A stretch of 64,000 nt of DNA from Thiofilum flexile DSM 14609. Its GTDB lineage: Bacteria; Pseudomonadota; Gammaproteobacteria; Thiotrichales; Thiotrichaceae. A program made the position numbers and the translations under genes. The notes beneath the pieces are model-generated. The model had not been told where the DNA came from. It saw nothing but the letters and a program-made list of their open reading frames with translations, and made no database searches. The stretch is taken from NCBI RefSeq assembly GCF_000380185.1, contig NZ_KB904816.1, positions 1 to 64,000 of the forward strand, read 5' to 3'. Below are positions 14,718 through 47,070 of the stretch, in pieces. How positions within the stretch are numbered: the stretch's first letter is position 1; each line of letters begins with the position of its first letter.

Positions 14718-15173
14718 ATGTCATTTTTAGATACATTAAAGCAAAAAGCGTCCGAAGCACGCACTATGCTCACTACTGAAATCGCCAAATTCAAAAATAA
14801 AGAATTTATGGAAGCCTGTGTCGCAGGCTGTGCTCTAGTAGCCGCTGCTGATGGTTCGATTGATTCGGCTGAAAAGCAAAAAATGATGAAATTCATTCAG
14901 CAATCCGATGAATTAAAAGTATTCGATACTAAGGACGTTATTGATTACTTCAATAAGATTGCTAATAATTTTGAATTCGACCATGAAATTGGTAAAGCAG
15001 AAGCGTTAAAAGTCATTGGTAAATTACGTTCTAAACCTGATGCAGCACGTCTAATGGTGCGGGTATGCTGTGCGATTGGTATGGCGGATGGTGATTTTGA
15101 CGAAAATGAGAAAAACATGATTCGTGAAATATGCCGTGATTTAGGTTTGCCAACCGATGATTTTGGTTTATAA
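14718..15173 (+). CDS. terB: TerB tellurite-resistance protein
   Basis: 151 residues, fully consistent with TerB. An amphipathic N-terminal helix (MSFLDTLKQKASEARTMLTT) is followed by two duplicated four-helix halves marked by AAADGSIDSAEKQKMMKF and GMADGDFDENEKNMIREI. These acidic DGxID/DGDFDE turns bind metal in TerB-like domains. TerB interacts with TerC at the inner membrane in the studied systems. An ATTAGGAG ribosome site precedes the ATG. It is the last gene of the run and is closed by a strong terminator. No terF, terW or terX/Y is seen nearby. Confidence 0.92.
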   Translation: MSFLDTLKQKASEARTMLTTEIAKFKNKEFMEACVAGCALVAAADGSIDSAEKQKMMKFIQQSDELKVFDTKDVIDYFNKIANNFEFDHEIGKAEALKVIGKLRSKPDAARLMVRVCCAIGMADGDFDENEKNMIREICRDLGLPTDDFGL

Positions 15174-15258: not shown

Positions 15259-15366
15259 CCAAAGTAATCGAGAATTTCTTCCGCAGCCGCTGTGAATACA
15301 TCCTTGTACGCTACAAGGCGGCATCCCTGCCGCCAAGACTGCTCCAGAAACACTCGATTACTTTGG
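15259..15366 (+). repeat. Palindrome-armed intergenic repeat, copy 1
   Basis: Left arm 15259-15279 and right arm 15346-15366 pair over 21 bp with two mismatches (outer 14 bp perfect, CCAAAGTAATCGAG). They enclose a 66-base interior of 8 bases, a 53-base core (15288-15340) and 5 bases. The core begins CGCTGTGAATACATCC and can form CCTTGTA-CGC-TACAAGG and GGCGGCA-TCCC-TGCCGCC hairpins. The same core occurs at 32462 and 46943 with different arms. This copy lies between the ter terminator and the convergent thioredoxin gene. Confidence 0.95.
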
Positions 15367-32403: not shown

Positions 32404-32430
32404 TATTGTTTGTGCTCTAGTGAGTCATCA

Positions 32431-32542
32431 AGTAGGCCAGTCGAGTGATGTTTTCCAGAGACGCTGTGAATACATCCTTGTACGCTTCAAGGCGGCATCC
32501 CTGCCGCCAAGACTCTTCCAAACATCACTCAACTGGCCTACT
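32431..32542 (+). repeat. Palindrome-armed intergenic repeat, copy 2
   Basis: The arms 32432-32453 and 32520-32541 pair over 22 bp with one G.T (GTAGGCCAGT ... ACTGGCCTAC); A32431 and T32542 extend them. They enclose the same 66-base interior length as the other copies, with the 53-base core at 32462-32514. The core differs from copies 1 and 3 by one base (GCTTCAAGG for GCTACAAGG). It lies between gcdH and the CoA-transferase gene, both on the plus strand. Confidence 0.95.
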
Positions 32543-32589
32543 GAGGCAACTATTGTCTATTCTTGTAGCTCAATTAGGGGAGTATTACC

Positions 32590-46902: not shown

Positions 46903-46915
46903 CATGGCCTGAGAC

Positions 46916-47019
46916 AAAGTAAGCGGGTCTTTCTGCCGCAGTCGCTGTGAATACATCCTTGTACGCTACAAGGCGGCATCCCTGCCGCCAAGACTGCTCT
47001 AGAAAGACCCGCTTACTTT
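46916..47019 (+). repeat. Palindrome-armed intergenic repeat, copy 3
   Basis: Perfect 19-bp arms at 46916-46934 and 47001-47019 (AAAGTAAGCGGGTCTTTCT and its complement) enclose the same 66-base interior: 8 bases, the 53-base core (46943-46995), 5 bases. The core is identical to copy 1. The inner ends of the arms also share TTTCT/AGAAA with copy 1. It lies between serC and pheA on the same strand. The right arm is followed by T then CAG, so it may also act as a terminator. Confidence 0.95.
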
Positions 47020-47070
47020 TCAGAATACCTAAGCATTAAAGCCAACTAAGATGAGTTGAGGATTAGAGGA

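Follow-up and report, generated by a model that had tools for sequence, protein, structure and literature searches.

The 64,000-nucleotide stretch of Thiofilum flexile DSM 14609 analysed here (the window) contains three copies of an intergenic palindromic repeat. On present sequence comparisons this repeat is probably (about 0.7) a dispersed RNA of the minus strand, which carries two predicted CsrA sites on a long stem maintained by compensated changes. Most likely, it represents a dispersed variant, in high copy number, of TwoAYGGAY, a predicted CsrA binder. The copies, at positions 15259-15366 (copy 1), 32432-32541 (copy 2), and 46916-47019 (copy 3), have identical orientation, and each consists of a core of ~60 bases between two arms of 19-22 bases.

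In the core, two hairpins, TACATCCNTGTA and GGCGGCATCCNTGCCGCC, are enclosed by a short inner stem, which in copy 3 is GCAGTC/GACTGC. The interior pattern common to the copies had three exact matches in the window and none in 100 shuffles. Folding of copy 3 deviated from that of dinucleotide shuffles with z-scores of -8.6 (minus strand) and -10.2 (plus strand); the minus strand reached -60 kcal/mol, while the shuffles gave -31. The arms of copy 3 paired exactly as counted in the preliminary description. The counts given there for the other two copies were also obtained, with corrections to the nature of the odd pairs. Namely, the pair of copy 2 reported as G.T is C.A on the plus strand and becomes G.U only in minus-strand RNA, and one of the two mismatches of copy 1 (A.C on the plus strand) corresponds to U.G on the minus strand. 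The coordinates of all features are listed in Table 1. Upstream of copy 1 (L018:1356-1470), another hairpin is followed by T8 (CCTCGATAGTATTATCGAGGCTTTTTTTT); it has weak Rfam matches of the leader type and looks like the intrinsic terminator of the gene ending at window position 15173.

Table 1. Repeat features located in the window.
Feature	Position	Strand	Details
Copy 1, left arm	15259..15279	+	19/21 pairing with 15346-15366
Copy 1, right arm	15346..15366	+	followed by the 132-bp unit's outer end CTCAAGTACTTA
Copy 1, core and inner stem	15272..15353	-	R1 model, 83.2 bits
Copy 2, left arm (drifted)	32432..32453	+	21/22 pairing with 32520-32541
Copy 2, right arm	32520..32541	+	21/22 pairing with 32432-32453
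Copy 2, core and inner stem	32446..32527	-	R1 model, 86.7 bits
Copy 3, left arm	46916..46934	+	19/19 pairing with 47001-47019
Copy 3, right arm	47001..47019	+	19/19 pairing with 46916-46934
Copy 3, core	46938..46997	-	GCAGTC/GACTGC inner stem around two hairpins; two minus-strand CANGGANG loops
Copy 3, R1 match	46927-47008		90.9 bits
Copy 3, hairpin 1	46952..46963	-	UACAAGGAUGUA on the minus strand; with the preceding G, fits SELEX RUACARGGAUGU (consensus as quoted in PMC7652899)
Copy 3, hairpin 2	46972..46989	-	GGCGGCAGGGAUGCCGCC on the minus strand, loop CAGGGAUG; consensus A/UCANGGANGU/A (as quoted in PMC6849547)

The repeat is abundant in the genome of T. flexile. A BLAST search revealed at least 40 copies, the exact core pattern 51, and R1, a covariance model derived from an alignment of 12 copies, at least 73. 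The arms of the 67 copies listed from this genome derive mostly from CCAAAGTAATCGAGTATTTCTT and CCAGAAATACCCGCTTACTTTGG, with compensated variants, and copies 1 and 3 have 15 of 19 arm bases in common. The preliminary description, which found almost no likeness between the arms of different loci, was therefore wrong for the genome as a whole and right for copy 2 alone, whose arms are among the most drifted of these 67 copies. About half of the copies in T. flexile end in TAAGTACTTGAGCC and GGTATACCTACTTA, forming a sharply bounded 132-bp unit (TAAGTA...TACTTA) with the 6-bp ends TAAGTA and TACTTA. Of 34 such units, 9 have an inner part that lies in reverse orientation to the outer ends.

Comparison of orthologous loci favoured one of the two alternatives offered in the preliminary description, an RNA stem under compensatory change. 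Sister species provided five syntenic stretch pairs (mean identity 79-86%) with eight element pairs in place, the element being present in both species at all eight loci. Among 74 changed arm pairs, 42 were altered on both sides and still paired, 18 were altered on one side and still paired, and 14 had lost pairing. Across these eight pairs the core was 91% identical, the arms 71%, and the neighbouring intergenic DNA 67%, on a scale where random strings give 55% under the same alignment procedure. The elements are thus inherited in place; the core is kept, the arms drift, and pairing is what the arms retain. Further support comes from a minus-strand alignment of 20 copies, with compensated change in 29 of 38 pairs, and from our first alignment, which exceeded all 500 shuffles in paired cells and covariation. 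The repeat is a clear example of arms evolving through pairing only. At L241:11445-11796 and L242:11500-11727, one species has a cluster of three elements where the other has two. The last copy of this cluster is located directly upstream of an ATG, behind the ribosome-binding-like sequence AAGGAAAAAAC, and has conserved arms, unlike most copies.

Conservation within the core follows a specific motif. Both loops read C-[A>G,C,T]-TCC-N-TG on the plus strand of 165 copies, which is CANGGANG on the minus strand; the two N positions of this motif are variable, and almost no change occurs at the other six. The scan that collected these copies favoured consensus-like loops, but the eight ortholog pairs provide a test independent of it. 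Here, 15 of 32 cells at N positions had changed, versus 2 of 96 at fixed positions (Fisher p 4e-9).

This motif agrees with the known target of CsrA. Published work gives A/UCANGGANGU/A as the RsmE/CsrA consensus (PMC6849547), RUACARGGAUGU as the SELEX consensus for CsrA (PMC7652899), and 10-63 nt, with an optimum above 18 nt, as the distance at which two sites are bridged (PMC7652899, PMC6849547). The repeat displays A/UCANGGANGU/A in the loops of two hairpins, one with a full fit to the consensus (hairpin 1) and one with CANGGANG and G/C closing pairs (hairpin 2). The GGA-to-GGA spacing of 23 nt falls inside the bridging range.

The genome of T. flexile encodes one csrA (E 2.5e-25). Within the class, csrA was detected in 68 of 73 element-bearing genomes versus 245 of 296 others (p 0.03); for genomes at least 90% complete, the numbers were 60 of 61 and 220 of 253 (p 0.006), an association that genome reduction may confound. 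The five element-bearing genomes in which csrA was not seen include four that are 67-88% complete and one, G257, that is 98% complete.

The arms also differ between strands. When mismatch events were made unique per genome and position, which limits the effect of shared ancestry, 114 A.C and 45 G.T mismatches were counted on the plus strand (p 4e-8). Exclusion of T. flexile left 96 versus 37, and counting by genome gave 23 versus 5. A.C on the plus strand is G.U on the minus strand, so that the stem of a minus-strand RNA stays intact; the functional strand thus looks to be the minus strand, although a strand-biased mutation process could be a partial source of the A.C excess.

Gene context is less favourable to this assignment. 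According to a simple ORF caller, the gene 3' ends nearest to the arms are a median of ~25 bases away. The 124 intergenic copies are located between convergent genes (43), tandem genes on the plus (41) or minus (29) strand, and divergent genes (11). The tandem split does not show the bias expected of a function in minus-strand 3'UTRs, and a promoter scan upstream of the minus strand gave no signal; together, these are the main weakness of the minus-strand RNA reading. A further point against a strand-specific RNA, which should resist flips, is the ortholog pair P5 (L243:8818-8898 versus L244:8998-9078), where the core has opposite orientation in the two species between two genes of the same strand.

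The best Rfam match of the element is TwoAYGGAY (RF01731), although its scores for copies 2 (32.5 bits, 32417-32557, the best match in the whole T. flexile genome) and 3 (28.7 bits, 46912-47023), both on the minus strand, lie below the gathering cutoff of 43 bits. Scores above the cutoff (43.6-55 bits) were obtained at 11 places in genome G247 and at one in G377, while no match reached it in the remaining 18 element-bearing genomes, out of 20 searched. Conversely, R1 matched all eight RF01731 loci that were fetched, on the opposite strand. The RF01731 model spans copies 2 and 3 from end to end on the same strand, and both the model and the element have two hairpins with ANGGAN loops enclosed by an external stem whose sequence is little conserved. 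The first Y of AYGGAY is often a purine in the element, the window copies included (AGGGAU, AAGGAU). TwoAYGGAY has been reported from gut metagenomes, Gammaproteobacteria, and Clostridiales (PMC2864571); it was predicted in 2014 to bind CsrA by motif matching (PMC4333381), and it belongs to the same Rfam clan (CL00106) as CsrB (RF00018). This alignment, the shared clan, and the earlier prediction indicate that the kind of element is already known. High-copy dispersal, compensated drift between orthologs, and flipping do not appear in the excerpted descriptions of TwoAYGGAY. Rfam matches to eukaryotic miRNA families and to Ysr224 were below their respective cutoffs and were taken as generic long-hairpin matches. 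All papers listed in a literature search by sequence string were unrelated.

The antagonists known for CsrA, a global regulator, are a small number of dedicated sponge RNAs. We infer that the repeat is transcribed, binds CsrA, and has a regulatory effect. If the minus strand were transcribed, by read-through or otherwise, its arms would form a stem closed by the conserved core, and the two candidate CsrA hairpins, with CANGGANG in each loop and 23 nt apart, could be bridged by one CsrA/RsmA dimer. Because only pairing of the arms would matter, their sequence could drift by compensated changes with the loops fixed. The presumed effect would be that CsrA is titrated or else tethered to the carrying transcript. 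Most copies are located directly beyond the 3' end of a gene.

The element would then be a scattered, low-dose counterpart of the CsrB and RsmZ sponges. Like CsrB, CsrC, RsmX, RsmY, and RsmZ, it has GGA-loop hairpins of the sort that pair up on CsrA dimers, and it shares the clan of CsrB. Those RNAs are single genes with many sites, whereas the element is one two-site module at many loci with a long variable stem. With at least 73 copies, each with two near-perfect predicted docking sites, the genome of T. flexile may contain many small CsrA decoys, as may the genomes of the other gammaproteobacterial genera with the element. If these repeats do display paired CsrA sites, CsrA availability would also depend on repeat transcription, and one class of intergenic palindromic repeats would have a specific biochemical role. 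It is a speculative extension, which we consider rather improbable, that the two-site elements at gene ends serve many Gammaproteobacteria as a genome-wide set of tens of CsrA decoys that can move and invert, with copy number setting a distributed CsrA buffer and core flips via the element's own arms switching the neighbouring carrier transcript.

The R1 model detected the element in 12 of 63 genomes of the family, spanning seven of eight genera, and in 73 of 369 genomes (66 of 271 genera) of the gammaproteobacterial sample. In the phylum sample, 28 of 398 genomes were positive, every one of them from the Gammaproteobacteria. The arms in R1-positive genomes comprise 20-45 bases and are complementary and locus-specific, and the core is almost constant. 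No match was found in E. coli or plasmids, and none that was convincing in phages (one partial phage match of 27 bp, E 0.03). Within genus g8, copy number drops from that of T. flexile to 12 in G049 and 0-1 in the remaining genomes. A search for empty sites in this genus met flanking genes that are 67-75% identical and broken synteny at the locus tried. The serC-pheA spacer of a Cocleimonas MAG lacks the element, but with a pheA protein of 61% identity this MAG is too remote for the spacer to count as an empty site.

The strongest competing explanation, though an unlikely one, is a mobile DNA element of the MITE or REP type. Its transposase would read the hairpins as single-stranded DNA, and arm complementarity would be needed for movement or kept by template switching (quasipalindrome correction), any RNA being incidental. 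The patchy copy number, the sharp boundaries of the 132-bp unit, its flipped inner parts, and the inverted core of pair P5 all fit such an element. The repeat also resembles REP/BIME sequences and MITEs, such as QMITE1/2 of Coxiella (PMC5896051), in being short, palindromic, and intergenic, in numbering tens of copies that often lie close to the 3' ends of genes, and in lacking a gene of its own. However, copies of a MITE or REP have a common palindrome sequence, while in this repeat the core is fixed and the arms drift but stay paired. Also, no target-site duplication, as expected of a MITE, was present in the 34 units of 132 bp. Matches to Y1 transposases, as would be expected of a REP/RAYT system, were uncorrelated with element copy number; IS200-type transposases were absent from G036 and G300, while G052 has nine matches and no element. 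A DNA hairpin provides no cause for the excess of A.C over G.T and leaves the conservation of CANGGANG, with both Ns free, unexplained; template switching accounts for perfect arms but not for the conserved core. The element, arms included, may nevertheless be mobile, and DNA movement is possible, perhaps alongside the RNA role preferred here. Fragments of an IS200-type transposase are located at several contig ends of the T. flexile assembly G000 (C2, C11, C23, C24, C33, C36, and C47), and a multi-copy insertion sequence therefore probably broke this assembly.

A bidirectional transcription terminator or a stabiliser of mRNA 3' ends, for which any stable stem would suffice, agrees with the short distance to gene 3' ends and with the predominance of convergent over divergent contexts, but is very improbable, given that no conserved U-tract follows the stem and that a generic stem accounts neither for the strand asymmetry nor for the conservation of the core and the fixed letters of the loops.

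The explanation favoured in the preliminary description, a mobile element whose 66-base interior inserts into palindromes already present, for example terminators, at their loops, is the least credible; strongly locus-specific arms in some genomes (for example, G049 and G300) and the share of copies between convergent genes speak for it, but it fails on arm families that recur with compensated variants within genomes, on orthologous loci that hold elements with drifted arms in sister species, and on a survey of outer arm ends in T. flexile, where none of the 30 sites read (of 53) had two arms joined without a core. The observation named in the preliminary description as contrary to this explanation, one arm sequence recurring across the genome, was largely made in T. 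flexile. Among these 30 sites, 25 contained an intact core, two (L228 and L233) had internal deletions keeping the core edges, one (L218) was a truncated end, and two had a core enlarged by an insert several tens of bases long. The latter are L229 (from ~1500, minus strand) and L215 (from ~1500), at C5:51692 and C23:17792 of the T. flexile genome. Their insert contains the inverted repeat AAAAATCG/CGATTTTT and a GGCGCAAGGACGCGCC hairpin; the loop of this hairpin, CAAGGACG, once more reads CANGGANG, here on the other strand.
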